36,684 bases of DNA from a virus. The notes below the pieces were generated by a model, which worked only from the letters and a program-made list of their open reading frames with translations, did not search any database and was not told the DNA's origin. Below are positions 1,956 to 33,995 of this stretch, one piece after another (the first letter of the stretch is position 1; every line of letters starts with the position of its first letter). Location: positions 1-36,684 of the IMG/VR virus record IMGVR_UViG_3300025687_000141. One strand, written 5' to 3'. Both the position numbers and the translations under genes were made by a program.

Positions 1956-1987
1956 TGTCTTACAATTCCCGAAACTTTGAGGTTTGC

Positions 1988-2176
1988 ATGAAGACGCACG
2001 TAAAAAACGACATGATTACCATGAGGATCGACACCTTCACTAAACTAGATGCTATCGAGATGGCCGCGTCGGACGGGTACAACTCCCTATCGGAGTGGAT
2101 AGTCCACATGCTCAAAAAGGAGCACATTCGTCGCAAACGCACCCAGAAGCGTAGAGCCCAGAAAAATAATAACTAA
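1988..2176 (+). CDS. Ribbon-helix-helix (Arc/CopG-like) DNA-binding protein, 62 aa
   Basis: The segment after Met9 (MITMRIDTFTKLDAIEMA) reads as a beta-strand with alternating residues, then helix A, an SDGYNSLSEW turn with helix B, and a very basic tail (RRKRTQKRRAQKK). This is the RHH layout, a dimer whose paired strand enters the major groove. Start is the ATG at 1988 with GAGG 5 nt before; a TTG at 1955 is less likely. It is the first gene of the rightward replication unit and has an operator-like TGTAATAC in its own promoter, so it is a candidate repressor of the early promoters. Confidence 0.8.
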   Translation: MKTHVKNDMITMRIDTFTKLDAIEMAASDGYNSLSEWIVHMLKKEHIRRKRTQKRRAQKNNN

Positions 2177-5343: not shown

Positions 5344-5534
5344 ATCGGTTCCTCAAAAGTAAAAACATCAAAGTCGGTCCACGTAGTCCCCAGGTCGTTG
5401 AATGTAACCCTCGATATGAGGAACGTGGGTTTGATCTCCTTCCACAGTTTGGCTTCTCTCCACCGATACCACCCTCCCAATAAGGGTCTGTTTCTATCGG
5501 GGTGGTCTCTTGGTAAGTCATTCAGAATCTGCAT
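5340..5534 (-). CDS. Early-operon protein, 64 aa, unknown
   Basis: ATG at 5534 overlaps the stop of the upstream Cys-rich gene (TAATG) and its own stop overlaps the next start (ATGA), so it is embedded in a coupled chain; this chain decides between it and a competing frame in the same place. Contains GGWYRWREAKLWKEIKPT and a TWTDFDVFTF end. No domain recognised; partial likeness to the 129-aa neighbour. Confidence 0.66.
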   Translation of the reverse strand: MQILNDLPRDHPDRNRPLLGGWYRWREAKLWKEIKPTFLISRVTFNDLGTTWTDFDVFTFEEPI

Positions 5535-5812
5535 TAATACGACCCGTGCCTTTCCTTAAAATCGGCCTCCGTGGGGCCTGTGGGGTGGTGGGTACACCAG
5601 GGGCTACTCCCTCGGGCGTGAGGGAACGGAAGTCCATCACATCGGCACGCCCTCCGCTTGTTCCGACCCTTCTCCTTCTCGTCTACCGACTTTAACGTAT
5701 CCCGCTTGCAACAAGGACAGTGGGGTCGGCGGACGTACTGCTCAATCGGTCGCTTCAGGGTCTTCCTGGCCCCGCACGTCCGCCGGATGCTGCATCGGTA
5801 GTTGTATGCCAT
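5534..5812 (-). CDS. Cys-rich zinc-binding-like phage protein, 92 aa
   Basis: Pattern C-x5-C (CSIRRTC), CPCC, CRC and WCTHHP around basic residues (ARKTLKRPIEQYVRRPHC) suggests two zinc sites and nucleic-acid contact. It resembles a small protein family seen in many proteobacterial phages with RxCxCDGxPFPHxxGS; function of that family is unknown to me. The N-terminal YRCS is part of the pattern, so the start at 5812 is kept although it overlaps the upstream gene by 71 nt in another frame. Confidence 0.74.
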   Translation of the reverse strand: MAYNYRCSIRRTCGARKTLKRPIEQYVRRPHCPCCKRDTLKSVDEKEKGRNKRRACRCDGLPFPHARGSSPWCTHHPTGPTEADFKERHGSY

Positions 5813-8749: not shown

Positions 8750-8792
8750 AATCTACTCCAATCGTATTACATTGTCAACAAGTTTGTAATAC
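8750..8792 (-). promoter_or_regulatory. Leftward early promoter with palindromic operator
   Basis: Minus strand TTGACA (8773-8778), 17-nt spacer, TAGATT (8750-8755). A perfect inverted repeat GTATTACA (8764-8771) / TGTAATAC (8785-8792) with 13-nt centre flanks the -35 box. This is the clearest operator in the window. Confidence 0.75.
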
Positions 8793-8795
8793 ATT

Positions 8796-9614
8796 TTATT
8801 TGAACTGCCCCCCCACTCTCAGGGCGTAGCGGATCCCTCGGGCCACGTTTCCACCGCCGATCCTCTCAACGTAGTCATACTGCTCCTGGCTCAGGCGTAT
8901 CGACTCCTTGGCCGTTAACCGGTAGTCGGGTTGTTTCTCCACGTCGATCTGCTTCCTGGGATCCAGGGGGGTCTCGATCAGTCGATCGATCACGTAACGC
9001 ACCCCGCGACTGGCTGAGGCCATCGGCTTACCTGTAGGGGTACGGGCTCCAGGGATCTCACCCAGGCGCATCGCGGTGTTCAGCTCCGCGTTAGTGAGGC
9101 TGGCCGTGGTTACTTTCCGAGGCGGTGGTGGTGGCTCTGGGGTGTACACGGTACCCACCTCGGCGTCGATGACGGCCTGGGGGAACAGGCGCACGGCAAT
9201 CCGCAGGCCTCTTGCCACGTTACGATAGCCCAGGCTCATGGCCTGTTTATAGAGTACCTGGGTCAAGGTGACGTTAAAGGGGCTCTTCACCATGGGCTCT
9301 GGGTCGATATCGTCCTGGCGTCTCAGGGCCTCGGCATCAAAGATCACAGGGGGTGGGTAGGTGTCGAGGCCCAGGACGTGGACGGCTCGGCGGAGACCCA
9401 CCTGTAGATCACCCTGGCCGATTTTAGTAGCTTTTGTGATGACGGAACGCGTCAATCGGACAGACACATTCTTAGGTTTTTGCCTCGTGTCTTGGCCTGT
9501 TCTATAGCGCCCCGGAGGCATGGGATCAATAGAACGGGGAGCGATCGGAGGGGGAATTACGGGGTTCATTACTTTATACCATGGGTTATGAGTCATATTA
9601 TATAGTGTATTCAT
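8796..9614 (-). CDS. Protein with four tandem RHH-like units, about 272 aa
   Basis: Four units share a strand, a helix and a helix ending in the consensus N-V-x-R-G-L-R-x-A-V: about residues 50-82 (LQVGLRRAVHVL), 113-144 (RNVARGLRIAVRLF), 168-212 (SASRGVRYVIDRLI, with an insertion) and 237-267 (GNVARGIRYALRV). RHH proteins normally supply one unit and dimerise, so this chain could form two internal pseudo-dimers. Pro-rich linkers separate units. It lies beside the main control region, so a DNA-binding regulator or origin-binding protein is likely. The start is uncertain: no good ribosome site precedes the ATGs at 9614, 9596 or 9569. Confidence 0.74.
   Translation of the reverse strand: MNTLYNMTHNPWYKVMNPVIPPPIAPRSIDPMPPGRYRTGQDTRQKPKNVSVRLTRSVITKATKIGQGDLQVGLRRAVHVLGLDTYPPPVIFDAEALRRQDDIDPEPMVKSPFNVTLTQVLYKQAMSLGYRNVARGLRIAVRLFPQAVIDAEVGTVYTPEPPPPPRKVTTASLTNAELNTAMRLGEIPGARTPTGKPMASASRGVRYVIDRLIETPLDPRKQIDVEKQPDYRLTAKESIRLSQEQYDYVERIGGGNVARGIRYALRVGGQFK
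9597..9602 (-). promoter_or_regulatory. Candidate -10 box of the tandem-RHH gene
   Basis: Perfect TATAAT on the minus strand, but no matching -35 at 16-18 nt. If it is used, translation would begin at the ATG at 9569 rather than 9614. Confidence 0.3.
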
Positions 9615-9638
9615 TTGGTGTAGGGGAGTCAACGTCGT

Positions 9639-9676
9639 GGTTTGACGTCACGGTCATGTCACGGTTTGACGTCACG
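9639..9676. repeat. Two direct repeats GGTTTGACGTCACG
   Basis: Copies at 9639-9652 and 9663-9676, 24 nt apart centre to centre (about two helical turns), each holding the palindrome TGACGTCA. Spacing and location just upstream of a regulator gene suggest a protein-binding pair. Confidence 0.7.
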
Positions 9677-10110
9677 TCGTGTTTTCGTTACATCGTTTCG
9701 CGTTCTGGGTTGGGGATTTAAATTCGTCTCTCGTTTTGAGGGCTTCGGTATGAACTAACGTAACTATTTTAGGGGTAGGTAAGTCATTGATTTTTAAAAA
9801 ATAACGTCGTTTCACGACACGCTTTATTTAGGGGGTGTAACCTAAAGTTGTGTTAAAAATCAATGACTTAGAGCCCGGTTACAGGTGGTGGGAGGGTTTA
9901 CACCTCTGTGGAGACTATATACCTTTAAAAGATATATCCTATTATTCATACTATTAATATTACTATACTACTGTAACTACTGTAGTAGGTTAGTATAATA
10001 GTAAAGGTTTCAAAGACTTAGAGAGGTTGACAGGGGTTGACGGGTTACGTTTAGGTGTAACCGTAGTGAAATGGTGACATATTGCGAAACGAGTATACGG
10101 GTCAAGTTAG
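9677..10110. other. Non-coding divergent control region, candidate replication origin
   Basis: No open reading frame with a ribosome site. Holds an 18-bp inverted repeat (9780-9870), a nested stem TTTAGG/CCTAAA (9828-9846 region), and an AT-rich stretch near 9917-10010 with TACTAC/GTAGTA and other dyads, followed by two TTGAC(A/G) boxes near 10027 and 10037. Divergent transcription leaves from both sides. Such a dyad plus AT-rich unwinding segment is what a PrimPol/VapE-type replicase would use, but origin function is inferred. Confidence 0.5.
9780..9870. repeat. 18-bp perfect inverted repeat
   Basis: TAAGTCATTGATTTTTAA (9780-9797) and its exact reverse complement (9853-9870), 55 nt apart, able to form a cruciform. 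Two smaller hairpins lie in the loop: GTCG/CGAC and TTTAGG/CCTAAA. Confidence 0.9.
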
Positions 10111-28187: not shown

Positions 28188-31100
28188 ATGGGCAAGTCCC
28201 TATGGGATCAAGATTGGAGCGCACCCCAGGGTGACGCTCCTGTTGCTTCAAATTCGTCCGACATGTGGTCAAGAGACTGGTCCATAGATGCCGTAGAACC
28301 CTCAGTTGCAGACCCAGAGATGGGAGACACTGTAGCTGGCGCAAACTCAGGCTTGGAAGGACTGAAGGGGTTGTGGCAGTATGGGAAGGCTGGCTTCGGC
28401 CAGATGATAAAAAACCCTGAGATGTTGAAGGAGGGGTTGGCTGCCGCTAAGGAGCACGAGCGTAAGGCCGCAGAGTATGGCCAGGGGCGCATTACCAATT
28501 GGGACGACATAACCGATTTCGACAAGGACCCCATCCAGTTCGCTAAGGACTTCGCTGACTACGCTCAGTTCGGTATGGGTACGCTTGCCCCGCACGCTGC
28601 AGAGTCAGCGTTAAGTGCCATAGCAGGCGGCGTCATTGGTGCGGCCACAACGGGTGGCGTCGCTACAGTCCCCGGGTTCTTCGGTGGCCTCCTTACAAAG
28701 CAGGCGATGAAGGAAACCCTCAAAGCCTACGCGAAGCACGAACTCAAAGACGTCGGTAAGGATAAACTCAAAGCCCAGGTAGAGAAGGACTTCGCTGAAT
28801 ACGCTGCCGGAACCCTGAAGGACGAAGCCAAGAAGCAAGTCATCCAAGGTAGTATCAAACGAGCCGGCGCATCGATCGGTGCCAAGGCCGGTGCCTTCGG
28901 GGCAGGTACGTCCACGGGCTTTGGCGATCTGTACAGCAACACGGTTGTCGACGGTGAGGGTTCACCTTACATGGCGGCGGCAGGGGCACCGATATACGGA
29001 GCACTGGACCTGATACCCGAAGCTATGGGGATCGATCGGATCATGAAGTCCGGTGCCGGATCACGGCTTGGAAACTTCGTCAAGGGTTTGTTCACGCAAG
29101 CCCCGGTCGGGTCTGTGACAGAGATGTCCCAGGAGGAGATGAACATCCAACTCCAGGCCCTCCATGACCCGAACTACGACCCATGGGGTGAAGACGCCTG
29201 GGTTAGACGTCGCGAGTCTGGGATCCTCGGCTTCATGGGCGACGGCGTGCTCGGTGGTGCTACTGGCGCTCTGCAGAAACCCGTGTCCGAGGCGCAGAGT
29301 GTCGACGAGGCGATTGCCCTGGCTGATCAACACGCTGGTATGGTTCTCCACGGAGCGCGTCAGCAGCAGGCCAATCAATTGTCTGCCATACAGTCGATCA
29401 TAGGTGCCAGTGACGTATCTCTGCAGACGATGCCCACCAGTCAGGAGGATGCGTACCGAGGGGTCGTCGAGTCCATATTCAACGACGCCAAGCAGAACCT
29501 ACCGATCTCTCAGGAAGAGCGTAACCAAAACGTCATAGATCAGACACCTACTGAGTTGACCGAGGGTGAATTGGCACCGGCTCGTCAATTGGCGGCTGAT
29601 GCTGATATGCGTCAACGGTTGGCGATTAACGAGAAGGAGCCACCCGAGGCAGCGCAAACCCGACAGGAGGCTCAGGCCAGTTGGATCGACGATCTACAGG
29701 CAGAGAGTGCCGTTGACAAAGCCCCCATCAATAAGGCCATGGCCGATGCCCTGGCTAAGGCTGGCGTTGTAACTGAACAGCAGGCCGCTGATGCTGGGGT
29801 TAAATTCTCCTCAGAGCAGTTGGCCGAGCGGGCGAACCAAGCAGCGACGTCTGACCTAAACGACCTAAACCCCCCCACTGAAGCACAGAAGGAGGCGGGT
29901 AACTATAAGGTCGGTAAGATCACGTTGAATGGCTTAGGGGTGAGTATTGAGAACCCCAAGGGCTCACTACGCGAGGGTACGGATAAAGACGGGGTCAAGT
30001 GGTCTCAGAAGCTGGGTGCCCATTACGGTTATATCCGAGGTACCGTAGGTGCCGATAAGGATCACGTCGACGCCTTCCTCACGGACAACGCCTCGGATGC
30101 TAATGCCCCGGTATTTGTTGTGGATCAGGTTACCCCCGGAACCACGAAATTTGATGAACATAAGGTTATTCTCGGGGCAAAATCGGAACAGGAGGCCGTT
30201 GACACCTACCTGTCTAACTATGAGGCGGGTTGGAAGGGTTTGGGTAGTATCACCCAAATGGACCAAGCGACGTTCAAAGAATGGGTTAAGGATCCTAAGA
30301 ATACGGCTCGTCGGTTAAGTATAAGACCTTATAAGGGGACTCGTAATGTCAGAGAAGATTCCAAGCTATACGTCGGGGAACCCTCCTCGGACCAGGAGTT
30401 TCAAACCACCCAAGGCTCAGTCGACTCACCCGAGTCCACCGGAGTACAAAACGGGAGCAGAGGAGTTGAAGACACATTCCTCGCAAACTACAAACACGTC
30501 CCGACAAAGACCGTAAAGGTAGGTGTTGAGAAAGTCACCACTCCTGAGGAGGCCGCTCATGTCCTGAGTTCGATCCGTAAGGGGGCTCAAGAGGTTTTCT
30601 ACGCATTGGTCTTGGGAGAGGACGGTCGGATCCTAGACATCCAGAACCTAACCAAAGGGGATCGTTCGGGAGCGTCCGTTCCCCCCAACGTCGTGGGGCC
30701 TTCGATTGCATCAGTTCCTGGGGCGGCTCAGGTCTACTACGGCCACAACCACCCCTCTGGCGAATCGAGTCCGTCCTCCGCAGACTTAGCTATAACCAAA
30801 GCGTTGGACGAGTTCCTCGATGGAAGTGGGATAACCCCCAAGGGTCACGTCGTGATAGCCAGTGGTGGGTCCGCTCATTTCATCGGGACGGACTCGTCTC
30901 AGACCCCGGTGAAGATTAAACCCCGGTTGCGTAAGCGTACGGTATCTGTGACAGAGCGAGAGGTGCGTAAACTCCCCCCCAAGGACCGGACTTCTATAAC
31001 CTCAGAGTCCGTCGGACGAGAGGTGTTAAAAGACCTACCCAGCGACAGTCTGGCGTTATTGGATAACAAACATCAGTTGGTAGGGTCGGTCAACCTAACC

Positions 31101-33995
31101 CCCAGAGAGATGGAATCTTTGCGTGACGGGGTCCAGGTAAAGCGCATTCTGACCGCCATTGATAAGACCAACGCTAGCGCAGGGTTCATAAAATCCACCG
31201 ACGTCGAGGCAGCTAAGAACCTGACGCGATTTATAAATGAGGGTTCTAAGCTAAGACTCCTTGACGCGCTGGTCGAGGGTAAGTCGGCGGGTATAGCAGA
31301 AGATCGGGGTATGTGGTTCTCGCCCCGCCAGAAGGCCGACAAGGTAAGTACAACTTCCCGGGTCGCGTTCGAGGTTGCCCCGGATCCTACCAATGTAGAG
31401 TTGAAGGGTAAATGGGACGGCCTGTCGGATGAACAACGCACCTCGGGTAGCCGTAAGGTGGCCGAGGCGATCGTACCCAAGGTATTGAAGCGTCTGGGGA
31501 TCAAGGGGGGTATCACCGATCAGGTGGGTGGTTACCAGGACGACACGAACCCCAGCTTCGCCCTTAACTTCGAGGGGAGCGTAACTGAGGCTCAGGTGGA
31601 GGAGGTTACCCGGTTACTGGGTCACGTTCTGTCCCAAGAGTCAATGATGACCACCAGCGAGGTAGAGCTACCTGGATCAGAGGAGGTGGGTGCGGTATCC
31701 ATCAAACTCCCTAAAGGGCTCACCACGGACGAGATACGAAATATCTACAACAACCTGCGTAAGTTGAAGGTTCGCGGTAAGCAGGTTATTGAAGGCCACA
31801 GCACACGAGACGGTGTGATGGACATCCTCAACTACTCCGACGTTCCGACCAAGGAGTTGGTTGGGTTGGTGCGTAATAAGCTGTTGGGTAAATACCCAGT
31901 CACCAGCAAGACCTTGTATTCGATATTCCCAGACAATAAGAGTTACGGGTTCGACAACGACGCTGAGGCTAATGCCCTGCGTGACGAGGCCACGTCTAAA
32001 GTCCAAGCGTTATTCGATGACGAGGGCGTCGCGTTTTCACCACGGTCGGTAGCACTGAAGGACGAGATCCCGGGCTTTAAGGCCCTGTATCCCTACCTCA
32101 CAAAGGCCGAGCGAGAGAACCTTACCCGTAAGTCCGCCGCTACCTTGGTGGAGATATTCGAGTCCATGCCGAACCCAGCAGAGGTGGCGTCTGTCGCTTA
32201 CGCGGGTCGTGCTAAACGGGGTTGGTACAAGAACTCCGCTCGGGCCTTGGTCGAAGTCTTCGGTGCCGTTGATGCGCCCCGGTTTGCGGGACTCCTCGCC
32301 GCGATGTCCCCCCAGACCTCGGTCGAGAATAACGCGATTAACGCGCTCAACACTTGGGCCAATTGGATAGCCGAAGGTCGACCCACGGAACGAGAGGCTA
32401 TCATCCAGGTTATGGGTCGTAGCGTCCAAGGTAACAAAGGGGTTGACTCCATACTAGACGCCTGGATTAACAACTCAGTCCGGGCTCTAACTGCGACGGA
32501 TCCTACCGAAATCATGTTGTCTGGACCAAAGGTAAACAGCTTCATGCTGAACCTGCGGGACGAAGTCAACGAAGTTACCAATGACGCGTGGATGGCAAAC
32601 TACTCAGGTGTAGATCAGATCCTATTCTCCGGGTCCGCCACCAAATCAGGCCCTGGTAAACGCCCTGGGTATCTAGCTATGTCGGCTACGGTGCGTAACG
32701 CCGCTAAGATTGTGAGTAAGAGAACCGGAGAGAAGTGGACCCCAGCTGAAGTTCAGGAGACTGTGTGGTCGTGGGCCAAGGCGTTGTACGAACTGCGGGA
32801 CTCTCGTACCAACAATGCGACCATTGCTGAGATACTCGCCGCAGGGGACCTCACCCATGATATGATCAATGACACCCCCGACTTTGAACTGGTGTTCATC
32901 GGTGGGGTATACAGAAACATTTTAGAGGGTGCCGGATATGGAAAAGAAGTTGCAGAGGTCGAGCGCGTTGTCAAGAGCCGCCTTGCGGACAACCAAGGCG
33001 ATGGGAGAAGAGCGCATGTTACAGATGCCGAAGGAGCAGGCGTTGCTCAAGACACTTTTGAGCGGCACCTCGGGAGGGCAGGAGAGCGACTTGAAAAGCT
33101 CAGAACCGTCCGACGGGGAGGCGTAAGTCTATCAACCAGACAAGAGGTACTAAGTGATGGCAAACCAGTCACATCTGGAGGCAGAGCTACAGAGGCTGCG
33201 AAGACTCTCGGCCGACGACTTGGCCTCGGAGAAGACGCCTATGTCGAGGTTGGAGTGCGGGATGCCACTACTCGAACCTTCGTCGACACCTTCGTCGAAA
33301 AGATCCTCGGAAAGCGGGTCGTGTTCTTTAAGAACGTTAGTGAAGAAAACCCAAAGTTCAACGGCGTTGTGCTGCGGGAGACCGCTGATACCATCTACCT
33401 CGACGCAGACGGAGACAGAGCCCACCTAGTTACCCTGGGACACGAGTTGTTACATGCCATGAAGTTGGACTTTCCGACTCTGTATGAAGACTTGAGATCG
33501 GCTCTGATGCCCCTGCTTAACGACTATGCCCCGTACAAGAAGTTCATCAATAAACCCCGTAGTAAGTTGGGGATGGGCGACTTGAGCGAGGAGGCTGTAA
33601 TCGAGGAGTTGATCGGAGATCTGATGGGTGACGGGTTTGCCGACCCACAGTTCTGGGCTAAGGTCAACCAGAAGTCACCAGCTCTATTGGTAAAAGTAGC
33701 CACAGCTATTAAGACTTTCCTTGACAGTGTGCTGGAAGTTCTGGTAGGGAAACAGCTACAGGGCACCAAATACTACAGCGATTATAAAAAAGCAAGAGAC
33801 TTTGCGGCCCTTGCTATGGCAGAATACGCAGATAAGCGGGTTAAGTCCCTGGACCTAATCAAGGTCACGGAGGATTTGGTGGTAGAGGAGACGGGTGAGC
33901 GCATCACGTTGGAGACCCCGGCGTCGGTTATGTTGGAGCAGTCCGATAACCGAGTGAACGCGCTACGTCAACTCCAAAGGTGTTTGTCATTATGA
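28188..33995 (+). CDS. Giant multidomain (polyvalent) virion protein, 1935 aa
   Basis: Order of parts: hydrophobic Gly/Ala stretches (about 140-165, 265-285) possibly membrane-active; about 590-710 a pyrophosphatase-like module (AHYGYIRGTVGADKDHVDAF, then KFDEHKVILG and WKGLGSI); about 770-900 a RadC/JAB-like module with H853, H855 and D866 in GHNHPSGESSPSSADLA; about 1287-1600 an unassigned helical domain (AAMSPQTSVENNAINALNTW); about 1700-1850 an HExxH zincin (H1752, E1753, H1756), then EEAVIEELIGDLMG. Known polyvalent phage proteins string such domains together and inject them with the genome to counter host defence. Short F-S-x-R-like linkers lie near 1044, 1283 and 1649. Confidence 0.85.
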   Translation: MGKSLWDQDWSAPQGDAPVASNSSDMWSRDWSIDAVEPSVADPEMGDTVAGANSGLEGLKGLWQYGKAGFGQMIKNPEMLKEGLAAAKEHERKAAEYGQGRITNWDDITDFDKDPIQFAKDFADYAQFGMGTLAPHAAESALSAIAGGVIGAATTGGVATVPGFFGGLLTKQAMKETLKAYAKHELKDVGKDKLKAQVEKDFAEYAAGTLKDEAKKQVIQGSIKRAGASIGAKAGAFGAGTSTGFGDLYSNTVVDGEGSPYMAAAGAPIYGALDLIPEAMGIDRIMKSGAGSRLGNFVKGLFTQAPVGSVTEMSQEEMNIQLQALHDPNYDPWGEDAWVRRRESGILGFMGDGVLGGATGALQKPVSEAQSVDEAIALADQHAGMVLHGARQQQANQLSAIQSIIGASDVSLQTMPTSQEDAYRGVVESIFNDAKQNLPISQEERNQNVIDQTPTELTEGELAPARQLAADADMRQRLAINEKEPPEAAQTRQEAQASWIDDLQAESAVDKAPINKAMADALAKAGVVTEQQAADAGVKFSSEQLAERANQAATSDLNDLNPPTEAQKEAGNYKVGKITLNGLGVSIENPKGSLREGTDKDGVKWSQKLGAHYGYIRGTVGADKDHVDAFLTDNASDANAPVFVVDQVTPGTTKFDEHKVILGAKSEQEAVDTYLSNYEAGWKGLGSITQMDQATFKEWVKDPKNTARRLSIRPYKGTRNVREDSKLYVGEPSSDQEFQTTQGSVDSPESTGVQNGSRGVEDTFLANYKHVPTKTVKVGVEKVTTPEEAAHVLSSIRKGAQEVFYALVLGEDGRILDIQNLTKGDRSGASVPPNVVGPSIASVPGAAQVYYGHNHPSGESSPSSADLAITKALDEFLDGSGITPKGHVVIASGGSAHFIGTDSSQTPVKIKPRLRKRTVSVTEREVRKLPPKDRTSITSESVGREVLKDLPSDSLALLDNKHQLVGSVNLTPREMESLRDGVQVKRILTAIDKTNASAGFIKSTDVEAAKNLTRFINEGSKLRLLDALVEGKSAGIAEDRGMWFSPRQKADKVSTTSRVAFEVAPDPTNVELKGKWDGLSDEQRTSGSRKVAEAIVPKVLKRLGIKGGITDQVGGYQDDTNPSFALNFEGSVTEAQVEEVTRLLGHVLSQESMMTTSEVELPGSEEVGAVSIKLPKGLTTDEIRNIYNNLRKLKVRGKQVIEGHSTRDGVMDILNYSDVPTKELVGLVRNKLLGKYPVTSKTLYSIFPDNKSYGFDNDAEANALRDEATSKVQALFDDEGVAFSPRSVALKDEIPGFKALYPYLTKAERENLTRKSAATLVEIFESMPNPAEVASVAYAGRAKRGWYKNSARALVEVFGAVDAPRFAGLLAAMSPQTSVENNAINALNTWANWIAEGRPTEREAIIQVMGRSVQGNKGVDSILDAWINNSVRALTATDPTEIMLSGPKVNSFMLNLRDEVNEVTNDAWMANYSGVDQILFSGSATKSGPGKRPGYLAMSATVRNAAKIVSKRTGEKWTPAEVQETVWSWAKALYELRDSRTNNATIAEILAAGDLTHDMINDTPDFELVFIGGVYRNILEGAGYGKEVAEVERVVKSRLADNQGDGRRAHVTDAEGAGVAQDTFERHLGRAGERLEKLRTVRRGGVSLSTRQEVLSDGKPVTSGGRATEAAKTLGRRLGLGEDAYVEVGVRDATTRTFVDTFVEKILGKRVVFFKNVSEENPKFNGVVLRETADTIYLDADGDRAHLVTLGHELLHAMKLDFPTLYEDLRSALMPLLNDYAPYKKFINKPRSKLGMGDLSEEAVIEELIGDLMGDGFADPQFWAKVNQKSPALLVKVATAIKTFLDSVLEVLVGKQLQGTKYYSDYKKARDFAALAMAEYADKRVKSLDLIKVTEDLVVEETGERITLETPASVMLEQSDNRVNALRQLQRCLSL

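Follow-up and report, generated by a model that had tools for sequence, protein, structure and literature searches.

We describe a phage protein, P0001, that we read, with a probability of roughly 0.6, as an early-region DNA-binding regulator built from four ribbon-helix-helix (RHH)-like units in one chain, with its own promoter as first target. RHH proteins usually reach DNA as dimers, which then multimerise. Units that would be homodimeric in single-unit relatives would here be joined by long, partly proline-rich linkers, and P0001 would need no dimerisation to read DNA. The RHH-like character of the units is supported by a profile match between their family and the Pfam family RHH_1, by the predicted model of units 1 and 4, and by matches of that model to solved structures.

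The DNA analysed, called the window throughout, is a stretch of 36,684 nucleotides from a virus record with a tailed-phage structural module. Its terminase shares 39.9% identity with its counterpart in Salmonella phage epsilon15; with others in the phage collection, identity reaches 51.1%. The P0001 gene opens a leftward series of small early genes and is separated from the rightward genes by an intergenic stretch of about 550 bp. The coordinates first proposed for it, 8796-9614, are correct, with the frame on the minus strand. Alternative starts exist upstream (TTG at 9632) and internally (ATG at 9596 and 9569), and none of them affects the units. The protein is made of repeated beta-alpha-alpha units, laid out as follows:

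8796-9614, minus strand: gene of P0001, 272 residues from an ATG at 9614 to a stop codon whose last base is 8796 (open reading frame and translation)
9369..9485, minus strand: unit 1, residues 44-82; seen by self-repeat, family HMM (21.2 bits) and AF2 (strand 48-55, helices 56-65 and 70-80)
9177..9299, minus strand: unit 2, residues 106-146; seen by self-repeat, family HMM (16.0 bits) and AF2 (helices modelled, strand not)
8967..9137, minus strand: unit 3, residues 160-216; probable degenerate copy, family HMM on its first half (9.2 bits)
8799..8927, minus strand: unit 4, residues 230-272; seen by self-repeat, family HMM (21.7 bits) and AF2 (strand 234-241, helices 243-252 and 257-271, pLDDT mostly above 90)

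When P0001 is compared with itself, off-diagonal BLOSUM62 scores of 58 (unit 2 against unit 4), 47 (1 against 4) and 39 (1 against 2) appear at offsets of 124, 187 and 63 residues, respectively. Over 300 shuffles of the protein, the best score per shuffle averaged 30 (standard deviation, 4.6) and reached a maximum of 45; thus, the two higher scores exceed the best of every shuffle, and the third lies about two standard deviations above the mean. Units 1, 2 and 4 are clear as repeats, and unit 4 is the most canonical copy. Since a repeat search detected no long DNA repeats beneath the units, their similarity is kept at the protein level. According to the original prediction, each unit ends in an NVxRGLRxA-like helix; this motif is literal in units 2 and 4 only, while units 1 and 3 deviate from it (DLQVGLRRA and SASRGVRYV, respectively).

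Full-length P0001 has no match in IMG/VR viral contigs, INPHARED phage records, Pfam, PHROGs, NCBIfam or PADLOC. Because the whole protein was without a database match, we gathered relatives by scanning viral contigs for a degenerate DNA pattern that encodes the second-helix motif alone, GxGN-x-[SA]-x-G-x-R-x-A. Most of the matches are open reading frames with a hydrophobic strand and a first helix spaced as in the window units, and this half was not part of the selection. A family HMM built from 31 rows (alignment A4), with the window rows excluded, finds units 1, 2 and 4 of P0001 with a total E value of 1.4e-18 in a set of 59,614 open reading frames. Some caution is due, in that an earlier family HMM and the rows descended from it had been filtered loosely for a strand of hydrophobic-x-hydrophobic type. 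To check for circularity, we built an HMM from only the unselected left half of the family; it matches P0001 at units 1, 2 and 3, and in 2000 shuffles a score as high came up once and any score at all in 1274. The family is marked by the motif G-x-G-N-x-[SA]-x-G-[ILV]-R-x-A, preceded by a strand at fixed spacing, and by their HMM matches units 1, 2 and 4 belong to it. The family consensus reads V-x-L-[STD]...A-x-x-L-G-x-G-N-x-S-x-G-[IV]-R-x-A, and its R-x-A helix motif is conserved across 34 family sequences.

After two further pattern scans, the family HMM gathered 259 open reading frames in 254 loci at E <1e-5, a set in which the window gene is counted twice (in the window and in L001), near-identical contigs are unmerged and loci L228-L309 are left out. 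As these sets were collected by motif patterns, among the matches listed, their proportions are not a census. Apart from the window gene, two units occur in one protein of the 259-member set, and one detectable unit occurs in each of the rest. The natural two-unit relative (5470-5793, minus strand, of locus L383) has its units 49 residues apart; its gene lies directly downstream of a primase/helicase gene, and the protein is possibly a replication-module regulator. At least 4 of 398 genomes from one bacterial phylum hold a single match each, with a limited number of candidates scored per genome. By its sequence, then, P0001 is a member of a small, mostly single-unit phage family. The relatives are homologues of its units with equal strand-helix-helix spacing, yet all but one of them carry one detectable unit per protein, against four in P0001. 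Family members, matched weakly in Pfam and PHROGs, are barely covered by these standard libraries. Taken more broadly, loci L052-L171 and L310-L476 hold mostly single-unit RHH-like phage proteins with the consensus LGxGNxSxGIRxA.

Other searches for relatives came back empty within their scope. No recognisable copy of the P0001 gene was seen at 50 loci of the relatives of the window terminase, which is weak evidence, many of these loci holding little upstream DNA. By tblastn, unit 4 gave matches at E >1 only in phages and plasmids, and two single-unit family members gave none in the phage collection. Profiles of the units or of the family found nothing convincing among PDB sequences, and the narrower motif NVARGhR retrieved no true relatives from viral and genome contigs.

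The count of units turns on the third segment, in which a strand and first helix like those of the other units are followed by a loop of about 13 extra residues, inserted between the two helices of the unit, and then by RGVRYVIDRL. Its strand/helix-A half scores 9.2 bits with the independent family HMM, and none of 2000 shuffles was as good. On its own, the RGVRYV half is not significant: 85 of 2000 shuffles did as well under the family HMM, and 57 of 2000 did so under an HMM made from units 1, 2 and 4. The whole segment was equalled or beaten by 2 of 2000 and 20 of 2000 shuffles with the same two models, respectively. It may be argued that only three units are real, the third segment being a linker of chance resemblance and the protein a one-chain pseudo-dimer formed by units 1 and 4, with unit 2 as a spare. 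The insignificance of the second half fits this proposal, as does the failure of the family HMM to find unit 3 as a domain; yet the performance of the first half, and of the segment as a whole, against shuffles speaks for a real unit, and the model places two helices (175-183 and 201-213) at the right positions. We consider the three-unit proposal unlikely, and residues 160-216 a probable degenerate fourth unit, with support mainly from the first half. The observation of four units in one chain therefore holds, with units 1, 2 and 4 clear and unit 3, first placed at residues 168-212, weak and degenerate. A more radical doubt, namely that chance or low complexity produced the repeats, or that the frame is not a gene, could draw on the want of any homologue of the whole protein. 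It is already contradicted by the family matches, which extend to more than 250 other viral open reading frames, as well as by the shuffle controls and the missing long DNA repeats, and we give it almost no credence.

Standard models do not place this family among RHH proteins. None of the models in Pfam, PHROG and NCBIfam names P0001 or its units as RHH. For the protein and its units, hmmscan gave no match to Pfam RHH_1 (PF01402) at E values up to 10, the Pfam scan gave none to a TraY model, and RHH_1 is absent from the 10 Pfam families matched by any of the 34 family members at E up to 1. Because those Pfam models do not match, we do not file P0001 under RHH_1 or TraY. The commonest weak Pfam match among the 34 members is CcdA (3 of 34; best E, 0.13), which is itself RHH-type. 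A relationship emerges when profiles are compared. In hhalign, the family profile (31 rows) scores 19.1 against a profile built from 30 RHH_1 members taken from genomes, out of 43 listed matches (E, 2.7e-4; probability, 42%; 36 columns), with the two strands in register and the R-x-A of the family placed on R-x-A-L. Column-shuffled RHH_1 profiles, 100 in all, scored no higher than 13.4, the reversed profile reached 11.3, and a control against the 30 PhdYefM members with loci scored 9.1. For the window units alone, the score against RHH_1 is 11.9, which falls within the shuffle range (maximum, 12.4) and is not significant. The phage family thus aligns with the RHH_1/CopG family from the strand through R-x-A-L; it differs in a helix A/turn that is 3 residues shorter and lies below Pfam detection.

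The predicted structure agrees with this assignment for the outer units. Without an alignment, the AF2 model was useless (mean pLDDT, 37.8); with 45 homologues (alignment A5), mean pLDDT rose to 67.6, with a pTM of 0.39. In this model, the strands of units 1 and 4 are each followed by two helices, with pLDDT mostly 77-96. Strands of at least three residues occur in these two units only, and units 2 and 3 are modelled as helices only. A strand plus two helices in the repeats, on which the original prediction staked its RHH reading, is accordingly seen in units 1 and 4, whereas units 2 and 3 lack a modelled strand. In an earlier 32-row display, the homologues were all aligned on unit 4; the pairing of units 1 and 4 may be an artefact of where the alignment was deep.

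Foldseek searches of PDB and BFVD gave the model no match with an E value of 0.001 or lower; some BFVD rows at E 0.5-2.2 bear RHH names. VIA-align, run over 52 chains, gave two joint-best matches with a Z score of 6.0, a level at which, by the tool's own warning, the likeness may reflect no more than a common arrangement. One is the permuted single-chain Arc (1u9p; rmsd 3.1 over 76 residues); the other is chain G in the F relaxosome entry 9f11 (rmsd 3.9 over 85 residues), which we read as probably TraY. Both span model residues 45-272 and hence both modelled units, and the next entry falls to Z 3.6. Permuted single-chain Arc resembles P0001 in holding an RHH dimer in one chain; it differs in being an engineered protein of two units. 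Together with the RHH_1 profile match and the model of units 1 and 4, these structural matches support a predicted RHH-type pseudo-dimer inside the P0001 chain, as first suggested. The broader RHH interpretation is upheld in part, for the RHH-like identity of the units and for a predicted pseudo-dimer within the chain; its double pseudo-dimer, the bridging of two operators and the holding of an origin stay putative.

We advance the hypothesis that unit 1 pairs with unit 4 and unit 2 with unit 3. Units 1 and 4 would form the main reading head, in which the outward strand residues, by the RHH register, would be N49/S51/R53 in unit 1 and K236/S238/R240 in unit 4, which are similar sets. In units 2 and 3, the corresponding strand positions carry small, polar residues if the RHH register is assumed for the sequence; these units would pair within the chain as a second head, different or weakened. 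That P0001 thereby carries two different built-in RHH pseudo-dimers in one polypeptide, an outer 1+4 and an inner 2+3 with different reading strands, is a tentative idea about which we are rather doubtful.

Three features of the DNA at and upstream of the gene start bear on its possible targets:

9634..9681, no strand assigned: candidate own operator, with GGTTTGACGTCACG twice plus GTC(A/G)(C/T)G elements (repeat search, motif positions, shuffles)
9604..9632, minus strand: sigma-70-like promoter, TTGACT-17-TACACT, 9 of 12 matches in a consensus scan, adjoining the repeat cluster
9780-9797/9853-9870, no strand assigned: perfect 18-bp inverted repeat with a 55-bp spacer, a neighbouring feature

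The copies of GGTTTGACGTCACG start at 9639 and 9663, 24 bp apart, and the GTC(A/G)(C/T)G elements lie at 9634, 9647, 9653, 9658, 9671 and 9676. When the intergenic region was shuffled 300 times, a direct repeat of this length, 14 nt, appeared once; outside this site, the window shows no enrichment of the candidate operator repeats. GTCACG as a statistically special hexamer cluster was rejected, its maximum of 3 copies being reached in 56 of 300 shuffles. The promoter-like element is weak, with 4 such sites in the region against 2.1 expected, which is near chance. The inverted repeat is by far the longest perfect dyad in the window (the next is 10 bp), and perfect-dyad content peaks in the 500-bp bin at 9500 (34, where the mean is 5.7); the gene does sit beside the densest dyad region, as first noted. 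The 18-bp dyad is possibly a replication or attachment site and is the putative main alternative target of P0001.

Single-chain RHH proteins with two units are known, and P0001 is predicted to work like a one-chain RHH protein. According to PMC12117103, F TraY is a monomer with a whole RHH dimer fold in one polypeptide, and its two-stranded ribbon enters the major groove. The likeness lies in that single-chain fold and in the F relaxosome chain 9f11_G being a joint-best solved match of the P0001 model; TraY differs in having two units rather than four and in being part of a conjugation relaxosome. AvtR of Acidianus filamentous virus 6 carries, according to a review (PMC5569661), a tandem pair of RHH motifs with a linker between them; it acts as the repressor of its own gene and shields a stretch of about 100 nucleotides separating two promoters. 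It is likewise a virus regulator with tandem, linker-joined RHH motifs in one chain; it differs in having two units and in coming from an archaeal virus, and it has no known sequence relation to P0001. It is by analogy with the two-unit AvtR that we propose an autoregulating early-region regulator. Autoregulation would probably proceed through the repeats at 9634-9681 in the P0001 promoter as first target, repressing or tuning leftward early transcription, and the other head would engage a site of its own, either neighbouring or separate.

Two other functions have to be weighed against this proposal. A multi-unit RHH protein could instead be a DNA-organising or origin/partition factor acting at the inverted repeat 9780-9870 rather than a promoter regulator, as the position of the gene next to the longest dyad of the window would suggest. 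The two-unit relative, encoded directly after a primase/helicase gene, agrees with such a role, and so does F TraY, for which PMC12117103 describes an RHH fold in one chain and the binding of its molecules to three sites at an origin of transfer. Yet the scan of early proteins turned up neither a relaxase nor a partition ATPase, the primase/helicase encoded in the window is about 4 kb away, and the repeats nearest the gene start fit autoregulation; we judge an origin or partition role improbable. The beta-alpha-alpha modules might, on the other hand, not be DNA-binding RHH dimers at all and instead make up a protein-protein interaction array, an antitoxin-like factor or an anti-host factor. 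The silence of the databases on P0001, the long linkers, the degenerate unit 3 and the small polar strand residues of units 2 and 3, which are less typical for base reading, would all suit such a role. It is at odds with the profile match to RHH_1, with the structural matches to DNA-binding single-chain RHH proteins and with the conservation of the R-x-A helix motif, and we hold it to be quite improbable. An early-region regulator acting on its own promoter remains our preferred reading of P0001.

In the open-licence papers searched, we found no report of a four-unit RHH chain, and such a chain looks new. If the two-head arrangement is true, a single monomer could grip two different operators at once, or one operator together with a replication site, and P0001 would be the first natural four-unit RHH chain known to us. 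Such a chain would show evolution fixing a dimer of dimers in one gene, with the reading strands free to diverge, and would offer a natural template for proteins that bind DNA at several sites.

A further repeat may belong to the regulatory DNA of this phage. The TGTAATAC repeat of the original prediction is real, with 8 copies in the window against 0.77 expected:

8764-8792 (pair), 1754, 1941, 7701, 10132, 16591 and 16683: copies of TGTAATAC

The pair, 8764-8771/8785-8792, is inverted and spans a perfect TTGACA -35-like box; from its sequence, it looks like the operator of another phage regulator. As first choice for the operator of P0001, TGTAATAC was rejected, none of the 8 exact copies lying in the P0001 promoter and one lying near an Arc-like gene. 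That gene (1985-2173, plus strand) encodes a 63-residue protein with an Arc-like RHH pattern and a weak PHROG match to an Arc-like repressor (E, 0.073); a copy of TGTAATAC lies just upstream of it and the primase/helicase gene just downstream. The 63-residue protein is a candidate TGTAATAC-binding regulator. Elsewhere in the window, the open reading frame at 28188-33995 (plus strand) encodes a giant multi-domain phage protein of 1935 residues with an inorganic-pyrophosphatase-like domain, a RadC-like JAB domain and DUF7178.
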